Shown here in pieces: positions 2,322 through 23,340 of a DNA stretch of 34,073 nt. The notes under the pieces are model-generated. The model was not told the DNA's origin and did not search any database. It saw only the letters and a program-made list of their open reading frames with translations. This DNA is from Actinomycetota bacterium (GTDB lineage Bacteria; Actinomycetota; Actinomycetes; Streptosporangiales; Streptosporangiaceae). Numbering within the stretch: position 1 is the first letter of the stretch; each line of letters begins with the position of its first letter. The translations under genes were made by a program, and so were the position numbers. The stretch is from positions 1 to 34,073 of the forward strand of contig DAHVAR010000122.1 in NCBI GenBank assembly GCA_027314515.1, in the 5' to 3' direction.

Positions 2322-2345
2322 GGTCGCTCCCCCTTCCCCGGCTCG

Positions 2346-5389: not shown

Positions 5390-6060
5390 CCCTGCAGCTC
5401 CCTCAGCTCGGCCGCGCTCGCGCTGGCGAGCTGACGGGTGAGACCGGACACGAACACGAGCATCATCAGCACGCCGGCGACGACGTCCAGGAAGATGCCG
5501 GCCTCCACGATGAACGGGAACGCGGCCACCAGCGTGATGGCGGCGAGAAACACCCCGTTCTCCACGATCAGCCAGCCGACAAGCTGGGCGACGGTGTGCC
5601 GGCGCACCACCATGGCGAGCGCGCCGAGCAGGATCACCGCGGTCGACAGCGGCACCACTGCGGCCGCGACCAGGCCATGCGGCAGCAACTGCGGGCGGGT
5701 GACCAGGTAGGCGAACGCGGTCAGGCCGCCGCCGACGATCAGCGAGGTGGACAGTCCCGTGGCTAGCGCCGAGTCCCTCTTGAGGTCCAGCCGGCGGATC
5801 AGCAGCCGGCGGGCCGCGAGCGGGATCCCGATGCCCTTGATCATCAGCGTGGCCCCGGCCAGTACCCACAGCTCCACGCTGTGGAAGGCGTACGCCGAGA
5901 CGCCGGCCGCGAACGACAGTACGACCGACTGCGCGCCGTAGTAGGCGACATACCGGTTGAACAGCTTGGAGCCGAGGCAGGCGAAGGCCAGCAGCAGGAT
6001 GACGACCCCGGACAGGTCGAGCAGGACGCCGGGCGCGCTGGTGGCCGACAGGCTCTGCAC
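5386..6060 (-). CDS. HyfE-like (NuoK/MrpC-like) membrane subunit
   Basis: Membrane protein of 224 residues with about six to seven hydrophobic segments. It resembles HyfE, whose C-terminal half is NuoK/MrpC-like. It starts with GTG at 6060, two bases after the HyfC-like stop, and overlaps the HyfF-like start by ATGA. In the complex it should sit in the membrane arm between the NuoH-like anchor and the antiporter-like subunits. HyfE proteins are poorly conserved, so the call rests on size, topology and position between HyfC- and HyfF-like genes. Confidence 0.85.
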   Translation of the reverse strand: MQSLSATSAPGVLLDLSGVVILLLAFACLGSKLFNRYVAYYGAQSVVLSFAAGVSAYAFHSVELWVLAGATLMIKGIGIPLAARRLLIRRLDLKRDSALATGLSTSLIVGGGLTAFAYLVTRPQLLPHGLVAAAVVPLSTAVILLGALAMVVRRHTVAQLVGWLIVENGVFLAAITLVAAFPFIVEAGIFLDVVAGVLMMLVFVSGLTRQLASASAAELRELQG

Positions 6061-6062
6061 GC

Positions 6063-7028
6063 TTACGCCCCGATCACGTAGGACGTGGCGACGCCGACCA
6101 GCGCCAGCAGGAACGCGGCGCCAAGGAACTCGGCGATCCGGAAGAACCGCAGCTTGGCGAACGAGGTGTCAATCACGACGATGGCGAGGCCGCAGAGAGC
6201 TAGCTTCCCGGCGAGAGCGGCGATGGCGAGCACGGCCGAGGGCAGGTCGGCCCCGTTCCCCAGTCCCCACGGGAGCACGAACACGTTCATGAAGATCGAT
6301 GACATCAGGAAGAGCTTCATCCAGCTCCCCCACTGCATCAGCGCGTAGCCGCGGCCGGAGTACTCCAGCACCCGGCTCTCCTCGATCATGGAGATCTCCG
6401 TGGTGCCGCCGTGACTGTCGATCGGGATCCGGCCGTTGTCCACCAGCACGATCATGAAGAACGCCAGCAGCCCGAGCAGGTGCGTGGGCAGCACCAGTGC
6501 GTACGGCGAGGCGGAGATCGCGTGGTTCATCAGGTACGGGTTGTCTGATGCCGACACCACACCCACGGTGAAGAAGACCAGAATCAGCGCCGGCTCGGCC
6601 ATGCTGCCGACCCAGCTCGCCCGGCTTGCCCCGAGTCCGCCGTAGGCGCTGCCGGTATCCAGGCCGGCCAGCGAGGTCATGAAGCTCGCCAGTGCCAGCA
6701 CGAAGGCGCCCCCGATCAGGTCGGCAAGGAACGCCAGGGGAAGCGGCGTGTTGGTGATGACCGGAACGATGACCGAGACCGTGAGGTAACAGGCGAAAGT
6801 GGCGAACGGCGTGATAGCAAAGATCCAGGATGCCTGATCGCTGGTCGCGCTGCCCTTGCGCAGTAGCTTGGCCAGGTCGCGGTAGGGCTGCAGCACGCTC
6901 GGGCCGCGCTTGGACTCGACGATCGCCTCAGCCCTGGCCAGGACGCCTGCGTACAGCGGCGCGGCGAGCAAAACAACGAGGCTTTGCAGGATCTGCGCTC
7001 CAACGGCAGACAGCAATATGACCTCCAC
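6063..7028 (-). CDS. HyfC-like (NuoH-like) membrane anchor subunit
   Basis: Membrane protein of up to 321 residues, equivalent to NuoH/HycD/HyfC, which anchors the soluble redox arm and forms the entry of the proton path. The conserved cytoplasmic loop ESKRGPSVLQPYRDLAKLL is near residues 38-56, and a second conserved region DNGRIPIDSHGGTTEISMIEE lies near residue 197. It is the first gene of the operon. The GTG at 7028 opens the frame, but GGAGG lies inside it, 5 bases before a TTG at 7016, so translation may begin at that TTG (317 residues). A motif shared with the Usp/DUF190 operon lies just upstream. Confidence 0.92.
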   Translation of the reverse strand: MEVILLSAVGAQILQSLVVLLAAPLYAGVLARAEAIVESKRGPSVLQPYRDLAKLLRKGSATSDQASWIFAITPFATFACYLTVSVIVPVITNTPLPLAFLADLIGGAFVLALASFMTSLAGLDTGSAYGGLGASRASWVGSMAEPALILVFFTVGVVSASDNPYLMNHAISASPYALVLPTHLLGLLAFFMIVLVDNGRIPIDSHGGTTEISMIEESRVLEYSGRGYALMQWGSWMKLFLMSSIFMNVFVLPWGLGNGADLPSAVLAIAALAGKLALCGLAIVVIDTSFAKLRFFRIAEFLGAAFLLALVGVATSYVIGA

Positions 7029-7048
7029 CTGTGCGGCGGTACACCGTG

Positions 7049-7098
7049 CAGGTAGAGGCCATCAGCCAGGGTAAGGGCGGCGTTACGCGAGCCTCATC
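7049..7098 (-). promoter_or_regulatory. Shared two-block upstream motif, copy 1 (complex operon)
   Basis: On the minus strand, GATGAGGCTCGC (7098-7087) is followed after 20 bases by GCTGATGGCCTCTACCTG (7066-7049). That ends about 20 bases before the first possible start of the HyfC-like gene. The same two blocks, at nearly the same spacing and distance from a start, precede the Usp gene (8053-8003). Position fits a promoter plus activator site. I cannot match it to a known sigma-factor or regulator consensus. Confidence 0.6.
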
Positions 7099-7119
7099 GC
7101 GTGATGACGAGCATACATG

Positions 7120-7524
7120 TCACGGCGGTGCCGCGGTAGCCGTTACACCCGGCTCTGCTGCCCGTGGCTCAGCGGCCCGGCGGGTGACAGTGACACGGCT
7201 GAGCACCACCAGCCCGCTGCCGACCAGCCGCTCGAGCACCGGCAGAAACGCGCGGACGCGGGCCTCGTCGTCGCTGATCTCGATGAGCACCGGCTCTGAT
7301 CCGCGCAGTCCGGCCAGACCCGGCGGGCACAGCAAGCCGGACGATCCGAAGCCGGTCAGGCCGCGGACCGCGGTGGCGCCGCTGAGCCCGGCTGCGCGGG
7401 CGCGGTCGACGATCTCGCGGTACAGCGGACGGCCTGCGAGGGTGTCGGCCGCGCGCACGAAGACCGACACGTGCACCTCGCAGCTTCGGACCAGCCGGTA
7501 CTGCTGGGCGGCCCGGCGGGTCAC
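7120..7524 (-). CDS. DUF190 (PII-like fold) protein
   Basis: Small cytoplasmic protein of 134 residues matching the DUF190 family: a beta-alpha-beta PII-like fold with VHVSVFVRAADTLAGRPLYREIV, followed by GLSGATAVRGLTGFGSSG and a C-terminal LIEISDDEARVRAFLPVLERLV. DUF190 proteins are often found beside CrcB fluoride channels and are suspected nucleotide-sensing regulators. No CrcB gene is visible here. Its GTG start overlaps the Usp stop by GTGA, so the two are co-translated. The role with a Usp protein is unknown; a signalling or stress function is inference. Confidence 0.85.
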   Translation of the reverse strand: MTRRAAQQYRLVRSCEVHVSVFVRAADTLAGRPLYREIVDRARAAGLSGATAVRGLTGFGSSGLLCPPGLAGLRGSEPVLIEISDDEARVRAFLPVLERLVGSGLVVLSRVTVTRRAAEPRAAEPGVTATAAPP

Positions 7525-7964
7525 CGCGCGCTCAGCAGCAGGACGGGCACCGAGCAGGCCTGAGCAGCCCGGCCTGCTACCCGGCCGAGCCTGCTCTTGC
7601 GGTGCGCTCCGTCACCGTGCCGGCCCAGCACCAGGATGTCGAAACCGTGCTGTTCGGCGTAGTCGGACACCACCTGACCAGCACTGCCATCGTCGGAGTA
7701 CACGACCTGGACGCTCATCCTGACCGTCTTGCCTGGCGGCTGCCCGCGCGCCAGCTCGCTGAGGATCGCTTCCGCCTGCTGGCGCAGCCGGCCGCCGCCC
7801 GCTTCCCGGGCCTCCGCATGCAGGCCCGGCGCTACGACGCACAGGGCGACGACATGACCGCCGTCGCCAGCCGCGACGGCAGCGGCTACCCCGAGCGCCT
7901 CGGCCGCGTCCGGCGAGCCATCGAAGCCCACCAGGACACGGCGGAACGGGCTGACGGTCCGCAC
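7521..7964 (-). CDS. Universal stress protein (UspA family)
   Basis: Single-domain Usp protein (147 residues). The N-terminal strand VLVGFDGSPDAAEAL carries the typical Asp, and the C-terminal nucleotide-binding segment is DILVLGRHGDGAHRKSRLGRVAG. GxxG is present, but the Ser/Thr after the last Gly of the classical G-2x-G-9x-G(S/T) motif is Arg. I prefer the GTG at 7964 because GGAGG sits about 8 bases upstream; a TTG at 7979 would add five residues. It is the first gene of a two-gene operon with DUF190, and its upstream region shares a motif with the complex operon. Usp proteins commonly act under energy or oxygen stress. Confidence 0.9.
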   Translation of the reverse strand: MRTVSPFRRVLVGFDGSPDAAEALGVAAAVAAGDGGHVVALCVVAPGLHAEAREAGGGRLRQQAEAILSELARGQPPGKTVRMSVQVVYSDDGSAGQVVSDYAEQHGFDILVLGRHGDGAHRKSRLGRVAGRAAQACSVPVLLLSAR

Positions 7965-8319
7965 TGTGTCCGCCTCCAAGCTCCCCCGGATGCCGACGGG
8001 ATCAGGTAGAGGCCATCAGCGAGTCCGTTTTCGCGGTTATGGCGAGCCTCATCGCCATTGGCCATTCTCACGGCGCAGCCGCACGACGACAAGGGCTTGC
8101 CGGTCGTCCCTTGACCGGCGAGTGCGTCGTTGCCAGACTTGCTGCCGGCGAAGGGGCTCGCCTCCAAGATCGCGGCCGCTGCCGCTGACAGTCCCTGCTC
8201 CTGCAAGCAGGTGAGGACGGTTCATGGCCAGGGTGAGCGACGACGAGGTCCTGTTGCTGTGGCGCCCGCTGCGAGCGTTCAATTCCGGCCCGTGACCACG
8301 CGCAAGGCGGGCGGTTAGG
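7965..8319. other. Non-coding region between divergent genes
   Basis: About 355 bases between the Usp gene (minus) and the CxxC-module gene (plus). It holds the second copy of the shared two-block motif (8003-8053). I see no convincing gene: the short ORFs here lack ribosome sites and family features. No strong promoter could be picked for the plus-strand gene. Confidence 0.5.
8003..8053 (-). promoter_or_regulatory. Shared two-block upstream motif, copy 2 (usp operon)
   Basis: Minus strand: GATGAGGCTCGC (8053-8042), 21 bases, then GCTGATGGCCTCTACCTG (8020-8003). This is identical in both blocks to the copy upstream of the HyfC-like gene, while the spacer sequences differ. The block end lies about 40 bases before the preferred usp start. 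Conservation of the blocks but not the spacer argues for regulatory selection rather than recent duplication. Confidence 0.6.
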
Positions 8320-9555
8320 TTGCCCGCCGCGACGCCGCTGCCGCGGGGCCCGTCAGTGCTGACCCTGTACAGCGCAGCGGACCTGCTGACCGCGCCAGGC
8401 TGCCCGGTGTGCCGGTACGCCGCCGAGGCAAGCGACCGCTATCTTCACTGGTTCGCGCTGGAGGGGCACTCCCAGCCTGCCACAATCACGCGCCTGTGCG
8501 CGAGCCTCGGCATGTGCGCGGCGCACACTCGCCGGCTGATGAGCCAGCCCGGCGCGCCCGTCCGGCTGACCGCCGTCTACCGGTACGTTGTCACCGCCGC
8601 AGGAGACCAACTGGCCGGGCGGGACGCGCGGCAGGCAGCCTGCCCCGGATGCGAGCATGACGAGGCGGCGGCCGGGCGCGCACTGGACACGCTGACCGAA
8701 GACCTCTCCGATCCGCCGGTGCTGGACCGCCTGCGGGAGCTTGGCGGCCTGTGCCTGCCGCACCTGGCCGCGGCATCAGCGGCCGGGCGGCCGCGGCTGG
8801 TCGCCCCGCTGGTGCAGACCATGCAGGCCACGATCGCCGCCCGCGGCACGTGCCGTGACTGGCTGGCCGGAACCGACCCCGACGCCGGGAACCGGGCCGC
8901 GCTGCGCGCAGCCATCCCCCCTGGCCGGCCGCCGGGCCCCGTCGCCTGCTGGCCGTGCCTGACCGGAGCGCTAGCCGAGCGGGACGCCCTGGCACGGCTG
9001 CCCAGCCAGGCCGGCGGCGGCCCGGACCCGGCGCTGGCGCTGTGCCCCGGCCATCTCGCCGACGCTGCCGCGGCGGCCGGCGGCCGCGGAAGCCGGCCGC
9101 TGCTCGCCTGGCAGGCGCAGTGCATGACACTGCGGATGCACGCAGGATCGGCCCGCTGGATGCGGCTGCGCCGCCGCGGCGGCCTGCCCGGCGAGTGCGC
9201 CGTCTGCCATGCCAGCCAGACCGCCGCCCGCCGCGCCCTCACAGGGTCGTCCGGCGAGCCGCACGACCCTGCCGCCGCGGCCGCCCTGTGCGTCCGGCAC
9301 CACCTCGCGCTTCGCGCCGCGGACCCGCGCGGCGCCCGGCAGCTCGCTCGGCGCGCGATCGGGCAGGCGAACCAGCTCGCAGCCGAGCTCGCCGACGCGT
9401 TCGACCGCGCCGCACGAGCGCGCAGCCAGGGTGCGCCCGCGCCGGGCACCACAGCCTGGCAGCGCGCCGCGGCCTTCCTCGACGGCAGCGTATTCGGCGG
9501 CTGGTCACGGCCACTGCCGGCCGGCTCCGTGCGCGACTGGCCGGTCAGGCCATGA
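8320..9555 (+). CDS. Protein with four CxxC...CxxH modules (DUF6062-like?)
   Basis: Soluble protein of up to 411 residues with four repeated putative metal-binding units: Cys28/Cys31 with Cys66/His69, Cys108/Cys111 with Cys145/His148, Cys210/Cys213 with Cys242/His245, and Cys293/Cys296 with Cys324/His327. Each has CPxC- or CxxC-type first knuckles and CxxH second knuckles 31-38 residues later, which suggests zinc sites joined by helices. The same unit occurs twice at the C-terminus of the dynamin-like GTPase at 16722-19127. The frame opens after a stop at 8293; TTG 8320 is the first start, GTG 8356 is a good alternative. The resemblance to DUF6062 is from memory and function is unknown. Confidence 0.75.
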   Translation: MPAATPLPRGPSVLTLYSAADLLTAPGCPVCRYAAEASDRYLHWFALEGHSQPATITRLCASLGMCAAHTRRLMSQPGAPVRLTAVYRYVVTAAGDQLAGRDARQAACPGCEHDEAAAGRALDTLTEDLSDPPVLDRLRELGGLCLPHLAAASAAGRPRLVAPLVQTMQATIAARGTCRDWLAGTDPDAGNRAALRAAIPPGRPPGPVACWPCLTGALAERDALARLPSQAGGGPDPALALCPGHLADAAAAAGGRGSRPLLAWQAQCMTLRMHAGSARWMRLRRRGGLPGECAVCHASQTAARRALTGSSGEPHDPAAAAALCVRHHLALRAADPRGARQLARRAIGQANQLAAELADAFDRAARARSQGAPAPGTTAWQRAAAFLDGSVFGGWSRPLPAGSVRDWPVRP

Positions 9556-9578
9556 CAGCCCAGTGGCCGGTCAGCGAC

Positions 9579-10466
9579 CTAGTCCCCAGCTCGCCAGCGG
9601 CGCAGGAACGGCGCCCGCCCGCCGGCCGCCCTTCGGGCTATCCCGTGCGCTTTCATCAGTCTCAGCACTGTCTGTGCCGGCTGCCCGGTAAGAAGCTCGA
9701 TATGGCGCGCAGCGAGACCGCACTGCACGTACAGCTCCTCCGCAAGCTGCGGGCTGACCGGGAACGGGACCGGGAACCGCTGCCAGATTGGCCCGCCCGC
9801 CGGCTGGCCCGGAATGCCGTGGCGGGCGAGCGAATGCGCCACCATCGGATCCGCGTACAGCGCGTCGATCAGCTCGATCTCGGTAGGCCCGCGGCGAGGT
9901 TGCGGGCCGCCCATCCGTACCGGCAGGCCCGCGTCGTGCGCGGCGCGCAAGACGATCTGGCGGGACACGCCGAGCAGCCGGCCGGTATCTGCCGCGGATA
10001 GCCCGGCGGTCACATACCACTTGCGTAGCGGCTCTGCCGGCAGCTGCAGCCGGTCCTCCCGGTTCAGCCGGCCGCGCGTGCGCATGCGGACGCCGCGGGC
10101 CCGCAGCCGGTCGCGCACGCTGCGCTCCGATAGCCCGGCCAGTGCCGAGATCTGAACCGATGTCCAGCGCCACTCGACATACAAGCGGGCCATCAGATCA
10201 TCGAGCAGCGCCTGGCTGTCATCGCGATGCCGCGGCCGGCCCGCGCCGCGCGGCTTGACAGCCACTCCGGAACGAGCAAGCAGCCTCCGCACGCGCTGCC
10301 TGTCCGCGCCGATCAGATCGCCGATCCGGTAGGTGGACAGGCCCTGGCAGACATACAGGTGCGCCACCAGCCCGGCGCAATCATCAGCCTGCGCACCGGA
10401 GGCCTGCCGCACGGCGGCAGCCTCCCGCATCGCATGCGGGCAACACGCATCGCTCTCTGGCCGCAC
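9579..10466 (-). CDS. Multi-helix-turn-helix DNA-binding protein
   Basis: A 295-residue protein built from repeated helix-turn-helix units of the pattern LY..xGLS...I..L.G.....V...L...G...R. Clear units lie near residues 32-70, 88-128, 144-184 and 242-278, with a degenerate one around 197-219. The units resemble the DNA-binding domains of resolvases and transposases, but no catalytic domain is visible, so it is probably a regulator or DNA-organising protein. It starts with GTG at 10466. Its Shine-Dalgarno AGGAGG (10480-10475, minus) lies inside a 21-bp repeat equal to the tRNA-Pro anticodon region. It converges on the CxxC-module gene. Confidence 0.75.
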   Translation of the reverse strand: MRPESDACCPHAMREAAAVRQASGAQADDCAGLVAHLYVCQGLSTYRIGDLIGADRQRVRRLLARSGVAVKPRGAGRPRHRDDSQALLDDLMARLYVEWRWTSVQISALAGLSERSVRDRLRARGVRMRTRGRLNREDRLQLPAEPLRKWYVTAGLSAADTGRLLGVSRQIVLRAAHDAGLPVRMGGPQPRRGPTEIELIDALYADPMVAHSLARHGIPGQPAGGPIWQRFPVPFPVSPQLAEELYVQCGLAARHIELLTGQPAQTVLRLMKAHGIARRAAGGRAPFLRRWRAGD

Positions 10467-10473
10467 GACACCA

Positions 10474-10494
10474 GCCTCCTGCTCCCAAAACAGG
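10474..10494. repeat. 21-bp direct repeat, candidate attachment core (left copy)
   Basis: Twenty-one bases beginning GCCTCCTGCTCCC are identical to 14883-14903, in the same orientation. The right copy is the anticodon stem-loop of a tRNA-Pro(TGG) 3' fragment. The left copy continues into neither half of a tRNA; it overlaps the ribosome-binding site of the multi-HTH gene. The two copies bracket about 4.4 kb with two integrase genes, so a recombination core is the natural reading. Confidence 0.65.
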
Positions 10495-10595
10495 AAAATA
10501 CGGTCGGCTGGCAGCGGCGCGCGTTGCCTGACGTGGCGCCTACCTGCGACGATCCTCGCCCCATGTCGGCAGACGTCGCCCGGTGACTGTGGCTG

Positions 10596-10618
10596 TTGGC
10601 TCCCAACTTGGCTCCCAC
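10596..10618. repeat. Short direct repeat upstream of toxin-antitoxin pair
   Basis: TTGGCTCCCA occurs at 10596-10605 and again at 10609-10618, 13 bases apart. It lies about 80 bases upstream of the antitoxin start and could be part of a regulator site, but nothing else supports a function. Confidence 0.35.
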
Positions 10619-10670
10619 TCAGGACGGCCTCGCTCGGTCAATTGCATTGGCCGAGACCACAGATCGACAT

Positions 10671-10684
10671 CAGAACATGTTCTG
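10671..10684. promoter_or_regulatory. Palindromic operator candidate for the toxin-antitoxin operon
   Basis: CAGAACATGTTCTG is a perfect 14-base palindrome ending 14 bases before the antitoxin ATG at 10699. Antitoxins of the Phd/YefM type commonly autorepress through palindromes in this position. The sequence TAGACT right after it could be a -10 element. It is not a LexA box of the known type, since the half-sites are two bases closer than CGAAC-N4-GTTCG. Confidence 0.5.
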
Positions 10685-10698
10685 AATAGACTCTTGTC

Positions 10699-11169
10699 AT
10701 GAGCGCGCAGCCAGCCGACGCCGTGAGCTTCTCAGACCTGTCCCGCAACCCACGCGCCGTCGCCGAACGCACCCGGCGCCTGGGCAGGCTGCGGGTGACC
10801 CACCGCGACGGGCCCGACTTCTACCTGACAGCAGCCGAAGCCGAAGACGAGCGGGACGAGAACCTCCTGACCGCCTCCCGCATGTTCATCGCACTGTCCC
10901 GCAGCGACGCCGGAACACGCGCGGTCGAGCTCGCCGTCACAGATGTCTTCCCCTGGACCCGCCACCTGTCCGCCGGCGAACGGTCGGCCTTCGCCGCAGA
11001 ACTCATCGCCGCCTTGTCGGACGCGGCCGAACTCACCATCGACGGCAAAGCACGCGAAGTTATCGCCGGCTGGCGCGCCACCGCCCGCATCAAGGCAGAC
11101 ATCCGCCAGTACCAGCAGGCACTGACCGCCACCGACGGTGACTACGGACCCGCAGAGGCCCTCGGATGA
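10699..11169 (+). CDS. Phd/YefM-like antitoxin
   Basis: A 156-residue protein with an N-terminal Phd/YefM-like segment (VSFSDLSRNPRAVAERTRRLGRLRVTHRDG), which normally dimerises and binds operator DNA. A helical C-terminal half would wrap the toxin. It starts with ATG at 10699 behind a palindromic operator candidate. The stop overlaps the toxin start by ATGA, the usual arrangement of type II pairs. It is longer than typical YefM proteins (about 85 residues); the extra C-terminal part has no recognised fold. It lies inside the candidate mobile block, where it could stabilise the element. Confidence 0.72.
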   Translation: MSAQPADAVSFSDLSRNPRAVAERTRRLGRLRVTHRDGPDFYLTAAEAEDERDENLLTASRMFIALSRSDAGTRAVELAVTDVFPWTRHLSAGERSAFAAELIAALSDAAELTIDGKAREVIAGWRATARIKADIRQYQQALTATDGDYGPAEALG

Positions 11170-11522
11170 GCCCCAAATGCGGCGACCGGGTCACCGTTCC
11201 CCCGCCCGACAGCCAGTGGGACGTCAGGTTCGGCACCAGCGAAGCAGCCGCCGGCTGGGACGAACTATGCCGCCATGCATTAGCGAACACCCGGCGCTGC
11301 CTGGAGATCCTGCGCACCGATCCCAGAACCCGGACCGACCACGACCGACAGCACCGCCTCCGCGGAGACCTCGCCACCCACCGCCACAACGGCCGCGACC
11401 TCGAGCAATGGGAATACGAAGTCACCAGCGGCGGCCGCGTCCGCTACGCCATCGACGACCACGCCCGCACCGTCTGGCTGATCTACGCCTCACCCAGGCA
11501 CCCCAAAGACACCGACCGGTAA
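11166..11522 (+). CDS. RelE/ParE-like toxin
   Basis: A 118-residue protein, basic and of the size of RelE-superfamily toxins. The segment GWDELCRHALANTRRCLEILRTDPR is followed by HRLRGDLATHRHNGRDLEQWEYEVTSGGRVRYAIDD and a terminal strand TVWLIYASPRHPKDTD. The strand order and the final hydrophobic strand followed by a basic tail match RelE-type proteins, which cleave mRNA on the ribosome. The ATG at 11166 overlaps the antitoxin stop. Catalytic residues cannot be assigned with certainty; ParE-like gyrase inhibition is possible. Confidence 0.72.
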   Translation: MSPKCGDRVTVPPPDSQWDVRFGTSEAAAGWDELCRHALANTRRCLEILRTDPRTRTDHDRQHRLRGDLATHRHNGRDLEQWEYEVTSGGRVRYAIDDHARTVWLIYASPRHPKDTDR

Positions 11523-11709
11523 GCCTGCCCGGCCCGGCGCACAAGTAAGGCTCGTTAGGTACGCCCTTAGGTTGTGGGCTTCCCCTCGGTCGCGGCGTTC
11601 AGAATGGCCCGATCTGCACGCTGGGTGGGAGCGCGGCACTTGGCCGCGAGGACCGCTCATGCGGATGTGAGGGCCACTGGGCGGATCCGCCGGCCGCGCC
11701 GCTCCGGTC

Positions 11710-12111
11710 TCATCCGGCGTGCCTGGCGGCAGATCCGTTCTGGCCGGTTGGGTAGGCGGCGACAAACACAGTTGCCTCGCGGGCGTCACGCGGCCACCGG
11801 TAAGCACGGCACCGCACGCCGGCTGGCAATATTAAAGCTTCTCCCACACTCAGCACACGGTCGGGCTCGGTGGGTGATGCGAACTCGAATTTCAGTTGCC
11901 CCTGAATCACCAGGATCAGATCAACCTGATCAGAGGAAAACCAGTTCTCGTCAATAGGCTCGGCGAGCTTGCTCACCCAGACCATCTCGATGCCCTGCCC
12001 GGAGAACACGGTCCCGACATCCCCGAACGGCGTGGCGCGGATCTGACCAGCGTCCCTACCCAAGACGTTGAAGACCTGCGGGACGGCCCCACCAGAATCG
12101 CCAGGTGTCAC
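11710..12111 (-). CDS. Cupin-domain protein
   Basis: Small single-domain cupin of 133 residues. The core reads SSDQVDLILVIQGQLKFEF, then DRVLSVGEALILPAGVRCRAYRWP, the two cupin motifs forming a beta-barrel. The usual metal-binding histidines of motif 1 are absent (DLILVIQG), so metal binding is doubtful. I start it at GTG 12111, which overlaps the upstream stop by GTGA; the frame is open further upstream but that lies within the previous gene. It is the last of a chain of overlapping genes led by two integrases, so it belongs to the element. Possible ligand-binding role only. Confidence 0.75.
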   Translation of the reverse strand: MTPGDSGGAVPQVFNVLGRDAGQIRATPFGDVGTVFSGQGIEMVWVSKLAEPIDENWFSSDQVDLILVIQGQLKFEFASPTEPDRVLSVGEALILPAGVRCRAYRWPRDAREATVFVAAYPTGQNGSAARHAG

Positions 12112-12353
12112 GGGAACTGAGAATAATGGCTGCGCCCACCACCAGCCTGGAAAAGGCCCAGTTGTCGTTCGGCCCATCGCTGAAGGACGTCCGCTACTGC
12201 CGCGATGAGGTTCGCCACGTCGAGAGCATCACCCAGAACCGGTCGTTCTGCGTGCAAGGCACTGGTGCCTGCGGCCCGATCGCCTGCGCGCAGAGTCGGC
12301 GTTATACGGGTGATCCTGTCAAGCGGGCGCGCCGTGTCGCTGATGGTGGTCAT
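12108..12353 (-). CDS. Small element-associated protein, function unknown
   Basis: An 81-residue protein with a basic N-terminus and a predicted amphipathic helix (DALDVANLIAAVADVLQRWAERQLGLF). The ATG at 12353 overlaps the preceding stop by ATGA and its stop overlaps the cupin start by GTGA. That coupling on both sides is the main reason to call it real. I do not recognise a domain. Similar small ORFs trail actinobacterial integrase pairs as far as I recall, but this needs a database check. Confidence 0.6.
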   Translation of the reverse strand: MTTISDTARPLDRITRITPTLRAGDRAAGTSALHAERPVLGDALDVANLIAAVADVLQRWAERQLGLFQAGGGRSHYSQFP

Positions 12354-12580
12354 GGCGTCGGCTCGCCGAAGAGTTCTTCGCCGCCGCTGATGCCGAGGAG
12401 GAAGGCGAACCGGTGCAGGTCGGCGCGGAGGGTCTCGATGCCGTAGGCGGGGTGGCCGGCGAAGGCGGCCAGGCTTTCGGCAAGGATCTGTTCCTGGCTG
12501 CCGGATAGCCAGCTGCTGATGAAGGCGAGCGTTTCGGCGAGTTCTGTCGCGTCGCTCAGGTCGAGGGTGATCTGGGGCAT
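12350..12580 (-). CDS. Small acidic element-associated protein, function unknown
   Basis: A 76-residue acidic protein (MPQITLDLSDATELAETL at the start, DLHRFAFLLGISGGEELFG near the end). It starts with ATG at 12580, inside the last 25 bases of the second recombinase, and overlaps the next gene by ATGA. Because of a frameshifting deletion in that recombinase, this gene's frame is now continuous with the recombinase N-terminus and could be misread as its C-terminal end. No known domain is recognised. Confidence 0.6.
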   Translation of the reverse strand: MPQITLDLSDATELAETLAFISSWLSGSQEQILAESLAAFAGHPAYGIETLRADLHRFAFLLGISGGEELFGEPTP

Positions 12581-13549
12581 GCGGTTGCGTTCCGTTCGGC
12601 TGAGGCGCGCTGGATGAGCCCGTCGAAGAGGGCGGCGCGGTCGGGCTGGCCGTGGTCCTGGGCGTGGTCGCGCTGGCGGGTGAGGATGGGCAGGAACTGG
12701 GGGCCGGTGCGGAAGTAGGCGCAGGTCTCGCAGGCTGATTCCAGCCGGCAGTCCAGTTCTGGGGGGCGGGTGCACAGGCCGTTGCCGAGCATGCGGGCGT
12801 GGGCTTCGCGGCGGAGCCGGGCCATGCCGGCGCTCTCGTAGTCGGCGGGCAGCTCCGGGGGCTGGCAGCCCGGCGAGGTCGGGGTGCAGGGGCACGTACC
12901 GGTCGTTGCGGAGCTTGCCGAGCGGGATCCGCAGCCAGTGCCCGGCGCCGATCTGGACGACCGCGTCCGCGTCCAGGTCCGCGAGCTCCCCGGCCCGCAT
13001 GCCGGTGCGGGCCAGCAGCTCGACCACGAGCCGGTCCCGGGGGTCAGTGCTGGCCCGGGCGGCGGCCATCAGCCTGGCGGCGTCGCGGTCGTCGAGGAAC
13101 TTCGGCAGCGGCTCGGGCTTCTTGGGTATATCCCCGGCAATGACCGGGTTCCGCGGCGGCGCGTCGGGCCAGTCCCACTCGATGATCCGCTCGAAGAACT
13201 GGCGGACCGTGCGCATCCGCTGCCGGTGCGTCTCCCGGCTGATCAGCTGGCCTGCCGACCGGTGCTTGCCGGCTAGCCACACCTTGTAGTCCTCGATGTC
13301 ATCACGGCCGACATCGGAGATCGCGGTGATCTGAGCCTCGGTGACCATCCAGCGGGCGAACTGCCGCAGCGCGTTCTCGGCAGCGGAGACGCTTCCGGGT
13401 GCCAGGAACGTGCCGAGCTGCCGCAGATACCGGTGGATCGTCGCGGCCGCCCGGGGTGCTGCGGCCTGCAGGCGCGCCCACTCTGCGGCGGCGAGGCTGC
13501 CCGCCCGCTGGCCATCGTCCTGAGGAGCCCTGGCGGGCAGGGCACTCAT
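12556..13549 (-). pseudogene. Tyrosine recombinase with catalytic core deleted and frameshifted
   Basis: The N-terminal half (from ATG 13549, overlapping the first integrase by ATGA) is a clear phage-type tyrosine recombinase. It has a SAM-like core-binding domain, then LLARTGMRAGELADLDADAV with the first catalytic Arg and LGKLRNDRYVPLHPDL. At about 12860-12885 it jumps in another frame to PELPADYESAGMARLRREAH and the usual C-terminal tail GLCTRPPELDC...CETCAYF, ending at 12556. The roughly 100-130 residues that should lie between, holding HxxR, the second His and the nucleophilic Tyr, are absent. It cannot catalyse recombination. The continuous open frame 13549-12350 is an artefact of the deletion joined to the 76-residue gene. 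Confidence 0.82.
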
Positions 13550-14511
13550 GAGACAGCCGTTTCCTGGATCGCCAGCATCTGGCCGACCGCCGCCGTATCG
13601 GCGTCGATCAGCGCACAGGCCCGCAGGTACTGATCGGCCAGCCAGTCGTTGGCCAGGTGCAGGTAGACGCGGGTGGACTCGATCGACCGGTGCCCGGCCT
13701 GGGCCTGCACCGCCTCCAGCGCCATCCCGGCTTCCCGCAGCCGGGTCAGGCAGGTGTGCCGCAGTTCATGACAGGTCGCGTGCTCCAGCCCGGCCCGCTG
13801 GCGGGCGCCGGCCAGGATCTCATCCAGCCCCCCTGCCGACAGCGGCAGGCCCCGCCGCGGACCTTTCAGTACCACGAACAGCCGGTCTGTATCCGCCGCG
13901 GCGGGCCGCTCCTCGTGCAGGTAGTCACCGAGCGCGCCGAAGAACCGGTTCGCGGCCGGGACCACCCGGTGATGGCCGCCCTTGCCCTCGGTGATGACCA
14001 GCCGCCGGTCCGCGACCTGCACGTCGGCGAACCGCAGGCCCAGCACCTCGCACCGGCGCAGCCCGGCCAGCAGCATCGCCAGCACCATCGCCCGGTCCCG
14101 GTCCGTGCGCAACGCGGCGAGCAGCTGGTCCGCCTCGGCTGGCGACAAGATCCTCGGCAGCGTGCGCGGCACCCGCACCAGCGGCGCCGTCCGTGACCGC
14201 ACTGACCCGCCCTGCCGCCGCGTCATCAGGCCGCGCGGCACCGGGTTCGCCTGAACAGGCGTATCCCCCCGGGCGACCAGGTACGCATACAGGCCCGACA
14301 CCGACGACAGGCGGCGTGCGATCGTCCGAGCTGACAGCCCGGACTCCCGGTCCGCCAGCCGGATCACCGTCCGGTCGCCACGCTGGTCGGCCAGGAAGTC
14401 GAACACGTCCGCCGCGGTGACCTCGACCGGGTCCTTGCCGACGACCGTGAAGAACGTCTTCAGGTCAAACGCGACCGCCCGCAGCGTGTTCGGCCGGCAC
14501 CGGCCCGCCAC
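13546..14511 (-). CDS. Tyrosine site-specific recombinase (integrase), intact
   Basis: Phage integrase/XerD-like enzyme with all catalytic residues visible: Arg152 (AGLRRCEVLGL), Lys177 (TEGKGGHHR), His248 and Arg251 (CHELRHTCL), His274 (AGHRS) and Tyr283 (TRVYLHLAN). The core-binding domain occupies about residues 1-95. The GTG at 14511 gives 321 residues, but the frame stays open to a stop at 14610 and family-like sequence (GDRLTDRYLEF) precedes the GTG. The true N-terminus is probably upstream, at a non-ATG codon, or has been damaged. It lies about 350 bases from a tRNA-Pro 3' fragment, its likely attachment site, and is followed by the broken recombinase. Confidence 0.9.
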   Translation of the reverse strand: MAGRCRPNTLRAVAFDLKTFFTVVGKDPVEVTAADVFDFLADQRGDRTVIRLADRESGLSARTIARRLSSVSGLYAYLVARGDTPVQANPVPRGLMTRRQGGSVRSRTAPLVRVPRTLPRILSPAEADQLLAALRTDRDRAMVLAMLLAGLRRCEVLGLRFADVQVADRRLVITEGKGGHHRVVPAANRFFGALGDYLHEERPAAADTDRLFVVLKGPRRGLPLSAGGLDEILAGARQRAGLEHATCHELRHTCLTRLREAGMALEAVQAQAGHRSIESTRVYLHLANDWLADQYLRACALIDADTAAVGQMLAIQETAVS

Positions 14512-14674
14512 GAACTCCAGATACCGGTCCGTCAGCCGATCACCCAGCGTGAAACGGACCTGGCCAGACCCCGAAAAGGTGCGCTCAAGACATGGAAGCT
14601 GCTCATCTCAGCACCATCCCAGCCCGGCCCGAAACAGCCCGGCAACGACACGGATCACCCGTGTATTAAGCGAT

Positions 14675-14711
14675 CTGAGTGAGCCGACCGTACATGCAGT
14701 TCCTCACTCAG
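14675..14711. repeat. Perfect 9-bp inverted repeat upstream of integrase
   Basis: CTGAGTGAG (14675-14683) and CTCACTCAG (14703-14711) flank a 19-base loop, in the 345-base gap between the integrase start and the tRNA fragment. Further ACTCA words occur at 14733 and 14754. It could be a regulator site, an integrase arm site or a hairpin. I see no gene in this gap. Confidence 0.5.
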
Positions 14712-14856
14712 CATGATGCCGGTCCCAATTGCACTCACGTGCCCGTCGTCAGGACTCAGGCAAGAGATACGAAACACCCACAGACCTTCGAAGTGGCCAC
14801 CTGCTTCCAGGAGACCTCCCACGGAAACCCAACTTCTCCTGACCTGCACGAACTTG

Positions 14857-14903
14857 TCGGGATGGCGGGATTCGAACCCGCGGCCTCCTGCTCCCAAAAC
14901 AGG
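14857..14903 (-). tRNA. 3' fragment of tRNA-Pro(TGG), candidate att site
   Basis: On the minus strand this reads as the 3' part of a tRNA. An anticodon arm CCTGT-TTTGGGA-GCAGG (anticodon TGG) is followed by a T-arm with GGTTCGAATC flanked by GCG/CGC, an acceptor 3' strand CATCCCG and the discriminator A at 14857. No D-arm or 5' acceptor strand precedes it, so it is not a functional tRNA. Such 3' fragments are left by integrases that recombine in tRNA genes. Bases 14883-14903 are repeated at 10474-10494. Confidence 0.8.
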
Positions 14904-15003
14904 GACCGTTGGCGGCGCATCCGCGATCTACGGCGAGCCCCTCCGCCGATAGCGCAAGCGTAACTGCCAGCGGCGAGCAGCCGGCATCCGCACCTCGCGG
15001 CCG

Positions 15004-15110
15004 TATACTGGGACTTGCGGCTTGCGAGCCGCGCGGCGGTGGAACCCGCCGGGGCATCGTGCCTGCCTGGGGTGAAACAGAACCCTGCCAAGGCACTATG
15101 CCTGAATGCC
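15004..15110 (+). promoter_or_regulatory. Possible promoter and hairpin-rich leader of the MFS/dynamin operon
   Basis: TATACT at 15004-15009 is a good -10 element, with no clear -35. From about 15016 the leader can fold into successive hairpins: 15017-15032 (GCGGCT/AGCCGC, loop TGCG), 15034-15051 (CGGCGG/CCGCCG), 15053-15063 (GGCA/TGCC), a GGG/CCC stem in 15069-15085, and 15092-15102 (GGCA/TGCC). Repeated GGCA and TGCC words allow alternative pairings. It matches no riboswitch class I can recognise. It ends about 55 bases before the first gene of the operon. Confidence 0.4.
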
Positions 15111-15163
15111 GTTAGGCCGATGGTTCCTGTGTAGTGGACGCGCTTGCGACACGAGGACAGGAC

Positions 15164-15502
15164 ATGGCGCCATCGGCGAACAGGCCATTGCACCAGCCGG
15201 AACGATTCGGACGGCTATGGTGGCTGCCCTCGCACGGCGAGGGCAACGGGCTCGGCGATGCGGGCTGGGCGCCCGTGGCCGACGTAGCTGCCACCGTCGT
15301 CACGCCGCTGCTCGCGGAACTGCGAGCCGCGGGAGTACCCGCTCATGCCGCTCCCGTGACGCGCAGGCCGGGCCCGTCGCGCCAGCGGACGTCGCCGGAC
15401 CGCGCCTGGTGCCGGGTCTGGGTCGGGACCAGCGCCTATAGCCGGGCTGAAGAGATGCTGCGCGTCCGGCTCCCGGTCTTGCTCCGGCGCGCCCAGCCGT
15501 GA
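15164..15502 (+). CDS. Small conserved-looking hypothetical protein
   Basis: A 112-residue protein starting with ATG 15164, with GAGG 7 bases upstream; a GTG at 15134 would add ten residues. The segment WAPVADVAATVVTPLLAELRAAGVPAHAAP resembles one alpha-beta unit, and RVWVGTSAYSRAEEMLRVRLPVLLRR is a strand-helix C-terminus. Together they look like an ACT/PII-like or ferredoxin-like small domain, but that is inference. Its stop overlaps the MFS start by GTGA, so it is the first gene of the MFS-dynamin operon. Function unknown. Confidence 0.6.
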   Translation: MAPSANRPLHQPERFGRLWWLPSHGEGNGLGDAGWAPVADVAATVVTPLLAELRAAGVPAHAAPVTRRPGPSRQRTSPDRAWCRVWVGTSAYSRAEEMLRVRLPVLLRRAQP

Positions 15503-16722
15503 TCTCACCGAAGGTGCGGAGCGCGCGTTCCCCTGCCCCGGCGCTGAAGTTCGTGCTCATGGTCGGCGTTATGAGCTTCTTTGCCGACTTCACCTACGAG
15601 GGCTCCCGCTCGGTGATCGGCCCGTACCTGGGCACGCTCGGCGCCGGCGCCCTGGCGATCAGCGTGATCAGCGGCCTGGGTGAGTTCCTCGGCTACGGGC
15701 TGCGGCTGTTCTCCGGCCGGGCCGCGGACCGCACCGGCCGGTACTGGCCGATCACCATCTCCGGCTATGTGGTGCAGATGGCCGCGGTGCCACTGCTGGC
15801 GCTGGCCGGGAACTGGGCGGTCGCGGCGCTGCTGATCATCGCCGAGCGGGTCGGCAAGGCCACCCGCAACCCGCCGCGGGACGCGATGCTGTCGCACGCG
15901 GCGCAAGAGATGGGCTACGGCTGGGGCTTCGGCGTGCACGAGGCGCTGGACCAGTTCGGCGCCCTGTTCGGGCCGCTGCTGGTCGCGCTGGTGCTGGCGG
16001 TCAGCAACCACGACTACAAGCTCGCGTTCGCCGCACTCGCGGCACCTGCCGTGATCACGCTGACGCTGGTGCTGGTGGCCCGGCGATTCTACCCCCGCCC
16101 GCAGGACCTGTTGGCCGGCCCGGCCGAGGTCACCACGTCCGGGCTGCCGCGGGTGTTCTGGGTCTATCTGGCCGGCGCCGCGCTGATAGCGGCGGGCCTG
16201 GCGGATTTCCCGCTGATCGCCTTCCATCTCCAGCAAGCCCGCACGGTGGCGGCGCCGGTCGTGCCGGTGTTCTACGCGGTCGCGATGGCCGTCAGCGGCA
16301 CCGGGTCGCTGATCTTCGGCAAACTGTTCGACCGGTCCGGGACCACGGTGCTGATACCGCTGACGATCGCCGGCGCGGCGTACGCGCCGCTGGTGTTCCT
16401 CGGCGGCGTATGGCCGGCGGTATTCGGTGTGGCGCTGTGGGGCCTCGGCATGGGCGTGCAGGAATCGATCATCCCGGCCGCGGTTGCGCCGATGGTGTCA
16501 CCGGACCGCCGCGCCTCCGCCTACGGCCTGTTCACCGGTGCCTACGGCACTGCGTGGGTGGCCGGCAGCATCGCGATCGGCTTCCTCTTCGAGGTCTCCC
16601 TGGGCGCGGTCACCGCGTTCGCCGTCGCGGCGCAGCTTGCCGCGGTCCCGTTCCTTCTCGCCGTCCGCCGGCGCGCTCCCCGGTCACGACCGCCGGGAAC
16701 GGGCAGCACCCCGCAGCCCTGA
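15499..16722 (+). CDS. MFS transporter
   Basis: Twelve-helix major facilitator protein (407 residues). The loop between helices 2 and 3 carries a degenerate motif A (GRAADRTGRYWP), and the N-terminus reads MSFFADFTYEGSRSVIGPYL, a pattern I recall in a widespread uncharacterised MFS group. RVGKATRNPPRDAML follows helix 4. The GTG at 15499 overlaps the small upstream gene, and the stop shares a base with the dynamin start (TGATG), so the three genes are translationally coupled. The substrate cannot be inferred. Pairing of an MFS with a dynamin-like GTPase is unusual. Confidence 0.9.
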   Translation: MISPKVRSARSPAPALKFVLMVGVMSFFADFTYEGSRSVIGPYLGTLGAGALAISVISGLGEFLGYGLRLFSGRAADRTGRYWPITISGYVVQMAAVPLLALAGNWAVAALLIIAERVGKATRNPPRDAMLSHAAQEMGYGWGFGVHEALDQFGALFGPLLVALVLAVSNHDYKLAFAALAAPAVITLTLVLVARRFYPRPQDLLAGPAEVTTSGLPRVFWVYLAGAALIAAGLADFPLIAFHLQQARTVAAPVVPVFYAVAMAVSGTGSLIFGKLFDRSGTTVLIPLTIAGAAYAPLVFLGGVWPAVFGVALWGLGMGVQESIIPAAVAPMVSPDRRASAYGLFTGAYGTAWVAGSIAIGFLFEVSLGAVTAFAVAAQLAAVPFLLAVRRRAPRSRPPGTGSTPQP

Positions 16723-19127
16723 TGGACGGGCTGACCGGCTACCAGCAACGGCGGCTCGAGCTGGCGGACACGATCCGCGCTCTGCTGCCGGTCACCCGTG
16801 CCTATCGCGATGAGGAGCGTGAGCAGCAGGTCAGGGAACTGCTGACCCGGCTGGCGGCCGGGCGCTTCCAGCTCGCGGTGATCGGCCAGTTCAGTCGCGG
16901 CAAAACGACGCTGATGAACGCGCTGCTGGGCGGGGCGTACCTGCCGACGGGCGCGCTGCCGATGACGTCGGTCGTCACCACCGTCCGGTACGGAACCAGG
17001 CCGCGCGCGCTGGTCCGCAGCCACACTGCCAGCCTGCCCGTCGAGGTGCCGGTGCCCGAGGTGGCCCGGTTCGTGGCCCGGGCCAGCGCCGAGCGCACCC
17101 GGATGCAGGTCACCTCGGTCGAGGTGGAGATCCCGGCGGAGCTGCTGCGCCTGGGCTTCGAGTTCGTCGACACTCCCGGTGTCGGGTCCGCGATCGCCGC
17201 GAACACCGCCGCGACGCTGCGCTACCTGCCAAGCGCCGACGCCCTCGTGTTCGTCACCGGGTTCGACTCCGCGCTCACCAGGGCTGAGGCCGACTTCCTG
17301 ACCAGCGCGGCCGGCCAGGCCGGCAAGCTGTTCCTGGTCATCAACAAGCGCGACCTGGTCAGCGACGCCGAGGCCGCCGATGTGACCAGCTACGTGCAGG
17401 ACTGGGCACGCGCCAGCCTGCCAGCCGGGCCGCCGGTCTTCGCGATCTCCGCGCTGCACGCGCTGCACGCCGCCGTCGCCGGCCACCCCGAGGCGGTGAT
17501 CGCTGGCGGGATCGGCTCGCTGCGCGACGCGCTGACCCGGTTCCTGACCGCCGAGCAGGGCCGGGTCGCGCTTGGCAACGTCGCGGCCGGCGCCGCTGCG
17601 CTGGTGGGCAGGCAGCAGCGAGACCTGCGCGCCGGGCAGCTCAGCCGCGGTGGCGACCCGGCATCTGACAGCGTTGTCGCCGATTTCGAATCGCGGGTGA
17701 GCGAGCTCCAGGCTCAGCTCGCCACCGTCGCGGCGCGCATTGACGCCACGACCGCCACGGCAGTCACCGCCGTCCTCACCGACCGCGCCGCGGCCTGGAA
17801 AGCCGACCTCACCGGATTGCTCGCGACCGCCGCAGCGGAAGCGGACGGCGTAGCGGAAGCGGACGGCGATCCGGTGCCGGGCGCGCTTGCTGACCTGCGC
17901 CTGGCGGGCCGGCGGGCCGCTGGTGACTGGCTGGAGCAGCGCGCAGCCGAGTTGCGCGAGACGCTGATCAGTGCCGCGGCGCAGGACATCGGCATCCTGC
18001 TTGACCTGGCTGAATCCCCACGGGAGCTGGGCGCCGCGGCCGCCGGCCTGCCCGTCGGTGACAGCCCCCCTGGGGGCTGGGCCGCGCAGGAGATCCCGCA
18101 GCTCACCGTCCCCGTGGTGGAGTGGACGGTGCCAGAACCGCCGGCCGCCCGCCGACGGCCGCGCCGCAGCGCCGGGACTGACGCGAGCCGCGTCGTCTCG
18201 ACGGCCGCGGACAGCGCGGTGGCCGGGTTCGCCGGGCGTGCCGGGGCTGCCTTCCGCGCTGTTGCCGCAGAGTGGGCCCGCCAGCTGGGCGAGCAGGCAC
18301 GACGGCAAGCCAGCGCCGGGGCCGCGCAGTTCCGCCGGTACCTGTCGGCCGCGCCGCGCGACGAGGATGTCGCCCTTCTCGACGATCTGGCCGACCAGCT
18401 CGCCAGGTTCCGGGCTGGCCTGGCCGGCTGGGTTCCCGATGGCAGTCACCCTGCACCCGGTCCGGACAATGAAGCGCAGGCCGCGTCGATGCCGGGCGCA
18501 AGCGCGGCCTGCGCCATCTGCGGACAGCTGGAGGCAGCACAGGCCGAGTACCTGATCCGCCGGCAGTTCCTGCTTGCAACCAGCGACGCCGAGCAGGCAA
18601 GGCATGCCGACACTGGCGGGTTCTGCCCGCTGCACACCTGGCAGTACGCCCGGCTGGCCTCCCCCGTCGGCATCAGCGCCGGGAACGCCAGGCTCGCTAG
18701 CCAGCTTGCCGGCGCGCTGCGCGACGCCGGGGCCGGCAGCCGCGATCCAGCTGAGCTCGCCGCGCAGGTCGCAGGCCTAGCTCAGGCCAGGCCCTGTCCG
18801 GCTTGCACCATCATCTCGGCGACGGAGCGGCAGGCAGCCGCGAACCTGGCTGCGCAGCCACCAGCTGCCGCCGGCCTGCCCGTGCTGTGCCTGCGCCATG
18901 TCGCCCTGGTACTCCAATCCTGCTCGGCACTGCCGGCCGGACGGGCCATGACCGGCGCGCTCGCAGCGGCACTGCAGCGGGCGTCAGAGAACATGAGAGC
19001 CTACGCGCTGAAACGGGAAGCACTGCGCCGCGGCCTGATCACCGCCGACGAGGCGAGCGCCTACTCCGACGCGCTGCGGCTGCTCGCCGGACATCCCGCC
19101 CTCGCGCTGCCCGCGCAGCCCGAGTAA
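16722..19127 (+). CDS. Dynamin-like GTPase with C-terminal CxxC...CxxH modules
   Basis: An 801-residue protein with a dynamin-family GTPase domain: P-loop GQFSRGKTT (55-63), switch Thr region LPMTSVVT (79-86), G3 DTPGVGS (150-156) and G4 NKRD (208-211). A long helical middle follows, with no obvious transmembrane pair. From about residue 596 come two cysteine modules: Cys597/Cys600 with Cys635/His638, and Cys692/Cys695 with Cys723/His726. These match the units of the 411-residue protein at 8320-9555. The ATG at 16722 overlaps the MFS stop. Bacterial dynamins remodel or guard membranes; here the zinc-like tail may recruit a partner. That part is inference. Confidence 0.88.
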   Translation: MDGLTGYQQRRLELADTIRALLPVTRAYRDEEREQQVRELLTRLAAGRFQLAVIGQFSRGKTTLMNALLGGAYLPTGALPMTSVVTTVRYGTRPRALVRSHTASLPVEVPVPEVARFVARASAERTRMQVTSVEVEIPAELLRLGFEFVDTPGVGSAIAANTAATLRYLPSADALVFVTGFDSALTRAEADFLTSAAGQAGKLFLVINKRDLVSDAEAADVTSYVQDWARASLPAGPPVFAISALHALHAAVAGHPEAVIAGGIGSLRDALTRFLTAEQGRVALGNVAAGAAALVGRQQRDLRAGQLSRGGDPASDSVVADFESRVSELQAQLATVAARIDATTATAVTAVLTDRAAAWKADLTGLLATAAAEADGVAEADGDPVPGALADLRLAGRRAAGDWLEQRAAELRETLISAAAQDIGILLDLAESPRELGAAAAGLPVGDSPPGGWAAQEIPQLTVPVVEWTVPEPPAARRRPRRSAGTDASRVVSTAADSAVAGFAGRAGAAFRAVAAEWARQLGEQARRQASAGAAQFRRYLSAAPRDEDVALLDDLADQLARFRAGLAGWVPDGSHPAPGPDNEAQAASMPGASAACAICGQLEAAQAEYLIRRQFLLATSDAEQARHADTGGFCPLHTWQYARLASPVGISAGNARLASQLAGALRDAGAGSRDPAELAAQVAGLAQARPCPACTIISATERQAAANLAAQPPAAAGLPVLCLRHVALVLQSCSALPAGRAMTGALAAALQRASENMRAYALKREALRRGLITADEASAYSDALRLLAGHPALALPAQPE

Positions 19128-20994: not shown

Positions 20995-21080
20995 CCATCG
21001 TCCAGGGGCTGCTGCTCGCGGTGTCCGTAGTCGTGTTCATCTACCTCGGCGTGGCCCTGTTCAAGGCGGAGTGGTTCTGA
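20991..21080 (+). CDS. kdpF: KdpF, small subunit of K+-transporting ATPase
   Basis: A 29-residue single-helix peptide, MTIVQGLLLAVSVVVFIYLG and then VALFKAEWF, with the typical KdpF end (KxExF). KdpF stabilises the KdpABC complex in the membrane. It overlaps the 27-residue ORF upstream and shares a base with the kdpA start (TGATG). Confidence 0.85.
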   Translation: MTIVQGLLLAVSVVVFIYLGVALFKAEWF

Positions 21081-23280: not shown

Positions 23281-23340
23281 CCCATCGGAACAGATCAGCC
23301 ATGACGCAGTCCTCAGCTCACTCATCGGAGGTTGTCTCGC

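Follow-up and report, generated by a model that had tools for sequence, protein, structure and literature searches.

Dynamin-like GTPases and DUF6062 proteins as probable members of a fluoride-stress gene set in Actinomycetota

The window analysed here, the whole of a 34,073-nucleotide (nt) stretch from a Streptosporangiaceae bacterium (Actinomycetota; assembly GCA_027314515.1, contig DAHVAR010000122.1, forward strand; genome G000 in our numbering), carries a gene for a 411-residue protein (8320-9555, + strand, start TTG 8320 or GTG 8356), a gene for an 801-residue dynamin-like GTPase (16722-19127, +), and a transporter gene of the major facilitator superfamily (MFS; 15499-16722, +). The first two proteins share a repeated CxxC...CxxH unit. 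Judging from the RNA elements placed around them, the 411-residue gene, the dynamin genes and the MFS gene are very probably members of an actinobacterial fluoride-stress regulon, and their regulation by fluoride riboswitches is well supported by sequence. As the overall best explanation, which we hold with some confidence, a double-DUF6062 protein and a dynamin-DUF6062 fusion belong to a fluoride-stress gene set with a role at the membrane. These results suggest a dynamin-like membrane machine as the means by which some bacteria respond to toxic fluoride.

In the 411-residue protein the unit occurs four times (CPVC28/CAAH66, CPGC108/CLPH145, CWPC210/CPGH242 and CAVC293/CVRH324; about 8401-8526, 8641-8763, 8947-9054 and 9196-9300, +), and at the C-terminus of the GTPase it occurs twice (C597/C600-C635/H638 and C692/C695-C723/H726; about 18510-18635 and 18795-18899, +), at the positions given by a first-pass annotation of the window. 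Knuckle spacing was CxxC-x(27-34)-CxxH in both proteins. Against the observed four and two non-overlapping units, residue shuffles (20,000 for each protein) gave at most one and none, respectively. The module was also present in homologues: all 16 ligand residues were kept in the eight full-length rows among 11 four-unit sequences (window included), the other three rows being cut by contig ends, and all eight ligand residues of the GTPase were invariant in six of six sequences (the window and five others). Chance recurrence of the Cys/His pattern was ruled out by the shuffles together with this conservation. The four-unit protein was present in 11 of the 60 genomes searched (own included) and the fusion tail in eight of 120; the records of the close-relative scan were metagenome-assembled genomes, eight of 12 of them labelled Streptosporangiaceae.

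In order to identify the module we relied on profile comparisons. By these, each CxxC-x(27-34)-CxxH unit corresponds to half of a domain of the Pfam family DUF6062 (PF19538), a whole domain consisting of two units and a C-terminal helical stretch; the 411-residue protein carries two DUF6062-like domains in tandem, and the GTPase is a dynamin-DUF6062 fusion (domain at about 18450-19127, +), both under the Pfam cut-off. In direct scans the former reached 16.3 bits (cut-off 27) and the GTPase had no DUF6062 match; of the seven relatives scanned from other parts of the phylum, six exceeded the cut-off. With hhalign, the GTPase tail matched ten two-unit proteins (98.1%, E 1.3e-13) over 198 columns, from its first Cys through the C-terminal helical stretch, and the 411-residue family matched the two-unit proteins at 99.5% (E 6.1e-23, 165 columns). 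When the halves of that family were compared separately with the DUF6062 two-unit profile, the first gave 99.7% and the second 96.1% (E 2.9e-9, 194 columns). The direct comparison of the 411-residue family with the GTPase tail was weak (54%, E 1.3e-4; halves 9.1% and 59.8%), so the kinship of the two runs via DUF6062. The annotation had spoken of an undescribed system; two units of the module turn out to form a described Pfam domain, albeit one of unknown function.

AlphaFold returned an all-helical fold for the 411-residue protein (predicted local distance difference test, pLDDT, 77.8; predicted template modelling score, pTM, 0.78). In each unit of the model, a helix starts one residue after the leading Cys of CxxC and another one residue after the CxxH cysteine, a placement compatible with a metal site, and the C3H sites are predicted to hold, probably, Zn2+. 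An NCBIfam scan of the protein gave no match, the four-unit profile matched no solved structure at E ≤ 1, and Foldseek with the four-unit model gave 176 matches at E ≤ 10, the best at 0.35 and none at E ≤ 0.001. The DUF6062 profile matched a single solved structure, at E 0.67.

The GTPase scored 88 bits with Dynamin_N (cut-off 27), and its motifs GQFSRGKT (P-loop), DTPG and NKRD were invariant in the alignment. We took its start as ATG 16722; the longest open reading frame (ORF), 16410-19127, is longer by 104 codons. Its profile matched the solved structures 2j68 (5.3e-22), 6j72 (3e-18) and 5owv (4.3e-16), and no solved dynamin relative was matched in the tail, the best stretches stopping at profile position 437. 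The annotation had suggested stress or defence as the role of the system. It is very improbable that the dynamin-DUF6062 pair forms an anti-phage or abortive system to which the fluoride context is incidental. In PADLOC the GTPase did match, and Bacillus DynA confers phage resistance according to the available part of PMC8844932, but the only models hit were LeoA (6.7e-20) and LeoBC (2.7e-9), both themselves dynamins. The 411-residue and MFS proteins matched nothing, and no Leo-type genes stood together, four other proteins scanned (these two included) fitting no Leo model. Moreover, neighbours of ion and pH homeostasis and riboswitches recur, and the mobile genes here are an insertion that splits the cluster. 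On the PADLOC result and the gene context we rejected phage defence; for stress, by contrast, the fluoride riboswitches around the genes give the suggestion substance.

Among the neighbours, CrcB, DUF190, enolase, H+-pyrophosphatase, universal stress protein (USP), MutS and a hydrogenase-like complex hinted at fluoride, and Rfam bore this out. The element at 8000-8065 (-), 5' of the USP gene (7521-7964, -), scored 48.2 bits with the fluoride riboswitch model RF01734 and was the only one in the window over the gathering cut-off of 34 bits. Ahead of the hydrogenase-like operon, a riboswitch-like element (7046-7110, -) reached 30.9 bits (E 6.6e-5), under that cut-off. We also used two models of our own, R1, made from 30 elements of the scanned loci with the two elements just named among its rows, and R2, built on a G/C-core form of the element. 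A fluoride-riboswitch-like variant with a GAAG...CUGACAG core lies 5' of the 411-residue gene (8138-8204, +); absent from both training sets, it reached 34.5 bits with R1 (E 4e-7) and 41.0 bits with R2. A second, G-C-core variant at 14893-14956 (-) scored 20.8 bits with R1 (E 0.0012) and has relatives in L047, L151 and L050; it would originally have stood 5' of a helix-turn-helix (HTH)-type gene (9579-10466, -) that is kept in the neighbourhood of relatives. Neither variant matched RF01734 at E ≤ 1.

We then observed where such elements stand in related loci. RF01734 was found at cut-off in 24 of the 43 scanned (8/9, 3/10, 8/13 and 5/11 by batch), with elements 5' of USP, hydrogenase-like complex, MutS, CrcB, dynamin and DUF6062 genes. 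Within about 340 nt upstream, 11 of the 14 four-unit genes having some upstream sequence had an element (the window, L040, L042, L043, L044, L045, L047, L050, L060, L064 and L068). The family's stand-alone second dynamin had one ahead in all nine mapped loci (L041, L045, L048, L051, L054, L055, L056, L064 and L146; the copy of the window's genome, G000:C252, is among them), at a distance of 8-19 nt except in L048, where it is about 31 nt; the count leaves aside family dynamins outside the R1 scan, such as those of L037 and L039. In other loci, elements lay directly ahead of dynamin genes in L107, L108, L116, L132 (partial, at a contig end, 24.3 bits), L140, L141 and L143, and a weak one (16.9 bits) preceded an operon ending in dynamin in L142; the scan gave no element for the dynamins of L144, L145 and L147. 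DUF6062 was the first gene after the element in L115 and L140, and in L049 the element stands 3' of the USP gene. Because the aptamers end about 0-50 nt ahead of the dynamin start codons, control of the dynamins is likely translational.

Since these loci had been picked for their module or dynamin content, riboswitch-independent samples were used as a control. The phylum sample comprised 396 genomes taken irrespective of riboswitches, in which module genes were collected by two profile searches (17 and 15 genomes, union 22) and dynamins were called at Dynamin_N E < 1e-10; one weak hit (G259:C98, E 3.8e-4), with a frame unlike the module, was omitted from the locus count. The statistics of this control and of the core positions below are uncorrected for relatedness. 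RF01734 was detected in 90 of the 396 genomes, in 69 of them over cut-off. Twelve of 24 module loci lay within 3 kb of a riboswitch, with 0.107 expected, as did eight of 25 dynamins, with 0.090 expected; the dynamin set consists of 23 from genomes picked mostly for the module and two of the window's genome, includes G039:C23 (E 9.3e-11), and has one riboswitch-near member (G457) whose element is downstream. At the genome level, riboswitches occurred in 17/22 module genomes versus 73/374 others (p 3.1e-8; p 1.1e-7 without the window's genome).

Several results weigh against our explanation. R1 detected no element for the window's own MFS-GTPase genes; three of the 14 four-unit genes checked (L052, L053 and L059) had no upstream element, and two of the elements counted above are weak (L045, 23.6 bits with RF01734 and not listed with R1; L068, 20.1 bits). 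Half of the module loci (12/24) had no riboswitch within 5 kb, some on short contigs, and the module genomes G183, G185, G197, G400 and G431 had no RF01734 match; in G185, R1 saw a partial element at a contig end. The AlphaFold model of the GTPase, with long helices, is poor (pLDDT 51.9). Finally, nine of 21 module genomes in the phylum sample had no Dynamin_N hit at E < 1e-10, so dynamin cannot be the sole partner of DUF6062.

The variant elements pointed to a covarying core. At two core positions, which we equate with the fluoride aptamer residues A6 and U38, 71 aligned elements had A/U in 49 cases, G/C in 19, A/C in two, G/U in none and another combination in one. The G/C form precedes the second dynamin, the HTH gene and the MFS genes of L043, L040 and L044. 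R2 gave matches in 40 of 110 relatives, some of them canonical or weak. In 20 of the 30 R2 loci, the other ten being loci of the genus already analysed, the gene 3' of the match was crcB in ten, dynamin in four, the HTH gene in two, MFS in one and no assigned gene in three; 16 of 18 elements inspected in sequence had the G/C core. We noted the G/C form, also ahead of crcB pairs, among the 71 elements and in L170, L177, L178, L180, L181, L182, L184, L187 and L188. That the variant RNA binds some other ligand was set aside as a first choice, as the variant precedes crcB pairs. As the G/C-core form stands ahead of fluoride channel genes, its ligand is likely fluoride. We read it as an actinobacterial variety of the fluoride riboswitch, one to which RF01734 gives low scores or none.

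The module gene and the GTPase gene were repeatedly neighbours. In seven of the eight fusion genomes (G000, G001, G002, G004, G005, G007 and G027) the four-unit gene, or a contig-cut part of it, lay on the same contig within 12.9 kb; the eighth, G457, has only a short CxxH-like stretch ahead of the MFS gene. The order four-unit gene-MFS-GTPase was uninterrupted in L045 (G004), and the same order was found in L046 (G002), where the four-unit gene is cut by the contig end. By this comparison the two genes were once neighbours in the lineage of the window, as the annotation had guessed, and its link to the MFS gene likewise agrees with the contiguous loci. What mainly separates them now is, as also proposed there, a mobile block: an integrase-bearing element of 4.4 kb (10474-14903), with 21-nt direct repeats GCCTCCTGCTCCCAAAACAGG at 10474-10494 and 14883-14903 flanking two integrase genes, splits the cluster between the 411-residue gene and the MFS-GTPase pair. 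Comparison with L047 suggests that the element inserted into the 3' end of the riboswitch ahead of the HTH gene. The right repeat sits at the 3' end of the variant element 14893-14956 and shares bases with a weak tRNA-like match (14859-14922, -, 25.6 bits, under cut-off), and the integrase target resembles the expression platform of the HTH gene's switch. In the phylum sample, stand-alone DUF6062-type genes stood within 5 kb of a dynamin gene in five of 24 loci (G150, G066, G259, G296 and G185), with 0.06 expected; in L132 (G185) the two genes overlap by 4 nt.

Domain identity, conservation, adjacency and the placement of riboswitches can be read from the sequences. How these parts might work together we propose tentatively: dynamin would protect the membrane, aided by a helical adaptor that binds metal, the metal, adaptor and membrane roles being ones that we infer. 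Rising fluoride would be bound by the RNA elements 5' of the genes, and expression would be released. The dynamin might then seal, tether or remodel the inner membrane. All-helical DUF6062 domains, stabilised by C3H sites that probably carry Zn2+, would act as adaptors linking dynamin to its partners, namely the four-unit protein, the MFS protein and the hydrogenase-like complex. As an outcome, damage from hydrogen fluoride (HF)/fluoride and acidification would be limited. In the available parts of the respective papers, the bacterial dynamin IniA is induced by tuberculosis drugs (PMC6715688), DynA exerts membrane surveillance against antibiotics (PMC8844932), and HF entry accompanies cytoplasmic acidification, with fluoride tolerance tied to membrane energetics (PMC11139923).

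The hydrogenase-like complex, a group-4 hydrogenase-like or Nuo-like membrane complex encoded by an operon at 2-7028 (-), could itself be the centre of the system. DUF6062 would then be an accessory or maturation factor handling metal or iron-sulphur (Fe-S) clusters under fluoride, with the dynamin fusion as a membrane-placing side branch; this reading as a whole we judge unlikely. In L102 the four-unit gene directly follows a complete complex operon, itself preceded by a riboswitch (G165:C3:205877-205943), with no dynamin, and the C3H sites could hold Fe-S. However, DUF6062 also occurs with CrcB, antiporter/USP, MFS or dynamin and without the complex in the examined stretch (L139, L112, L107 and L108), and its fusion partner is a GTPase rather than a subunit of the complex. 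The large-subunit-like protein at 2346-3902 seems to be without the C-terminal CxxC, the nickel-ligand motif of the hydrogenase large subunit, and the complex could accordingly be something other than a true hydrogenase.

The MFS gene belongs to a subfamily that recurs beside DUF6062 and dynamin genes, within 5 kb in seven of 24 module loci (three of the seven supplied reference sequences). This would also fit a functional unit of DUF6062 and MFS, a transporter, possibly for fluoride or HF, with a regulatory partner, and a dynamin that is merely co-regulated. DUF6062 and MFS genes overlap in L107 and L139, and MFS is the first gene after the element in L105 and L183. CrcB was absent in seven of 20 genomes checked, and the module genomes G259 and G185 (84% and 95% complete) had neither a CrcB nor a CLC match. 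Nevertheless, those two have no such MFS near the module (the G185 contig being short), and five of the seven CrcB-lacking genomes have CLC genes. We consider such a unit distinctly improbable. Going further than our proposed scheme, a fluoride-inducible machine could combine riboswitch-run dynamins, metal-bound DUF6062 adaptors and a fluoride/HF-exporting MFS beyond CrcB/CLC-F, partly under the G-C-core switch; we regard this fuller version as rather unlikely.

Other genes of the window were assigned as follows. A DUF190 protein is encoded at 7120-7524 (-). Between the riboswitch and the 411-residue gene lies a 23-codon remnant (8224-8295, +) of an ORF of about 90 residues, which in relatives stands between riboswitch and module gene and whose intact form (L040:3051-3323) had no Pfam match. 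The small protein at 15164-15502, which the annotation had counted as part of the system, proved not to be a constant partner, since by clustering it recurs in one of 20 other loci (L043); ORFs in L105 and L151 resemble it by eye, and it had no Pfam match. At 21071-25955 we noted genes for KdpA and a KdpB-like P-type ATPase, separated by a USP gene, as well as a likely KdpC; no fluoride riboswitch was found ahead of them.

In the open-licence literature we found nothing that joins dynamin to the fluoride riboswitch or crcB, the primary 2012 target list, which may name some of these genes, lying outside that search. Nothing was found there on DUF6062, and the articles on bacterial dynamin and fluoride, as far as their accessible parts go, we judged unrelated. 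Within the literature searched, we conclude that the dynamins, DUF6062 and this MFS appear to be unrecognised members of the fluoride regulon. DUF6062, so far of unknown function, and a group of bacterial dynamins thereby gain a concrete condition, fluoride stress, and a riboswitch ahead of a dynamin gene is a clean experimental handle. If true, fluoride biology would widen to take in the membrane itself, besides export and enzyme targets. The findings also draw attention to a covarying core form, ahead of crcB genes, to which the present Rfam model gives low scores.

Collectively, the system can be set against three known ones. With Pfam DUF6062 it shares two CxxC...CxxH units per domain, in register, and a domain-wide profile match, and it differs in that the proteins of the window fall under the cut-off and show tandem duplication and dynamin fusion. 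With bacterial dynamin-like proteins (BDLP 2j68, IniA 6j72, the 5owv pair and LeoA) it shares the Dynamin_N domain and the P-loop, DTPG and NKRD motifs; unlike them, the GTPase has a C-terminal Cys/His domain and a fluoride-riboswitch context. Of the RF01734 regulon, the consulted parts of two papers report mutS and formate hydrogen lyase genes as targets of the fluoride (crcB) riboswitch motif (PMC2864571), and Na+/H+ antiporters, pyrophosphatase and formate hydrogen lyase (PMC11139923). Elements here precede neighbours already reported as such targets, whereas dynamin-like GTPases, DUF6062 and this MFS are not named among the targets in those parts, and many of the elements here carry the covarying G-C core.

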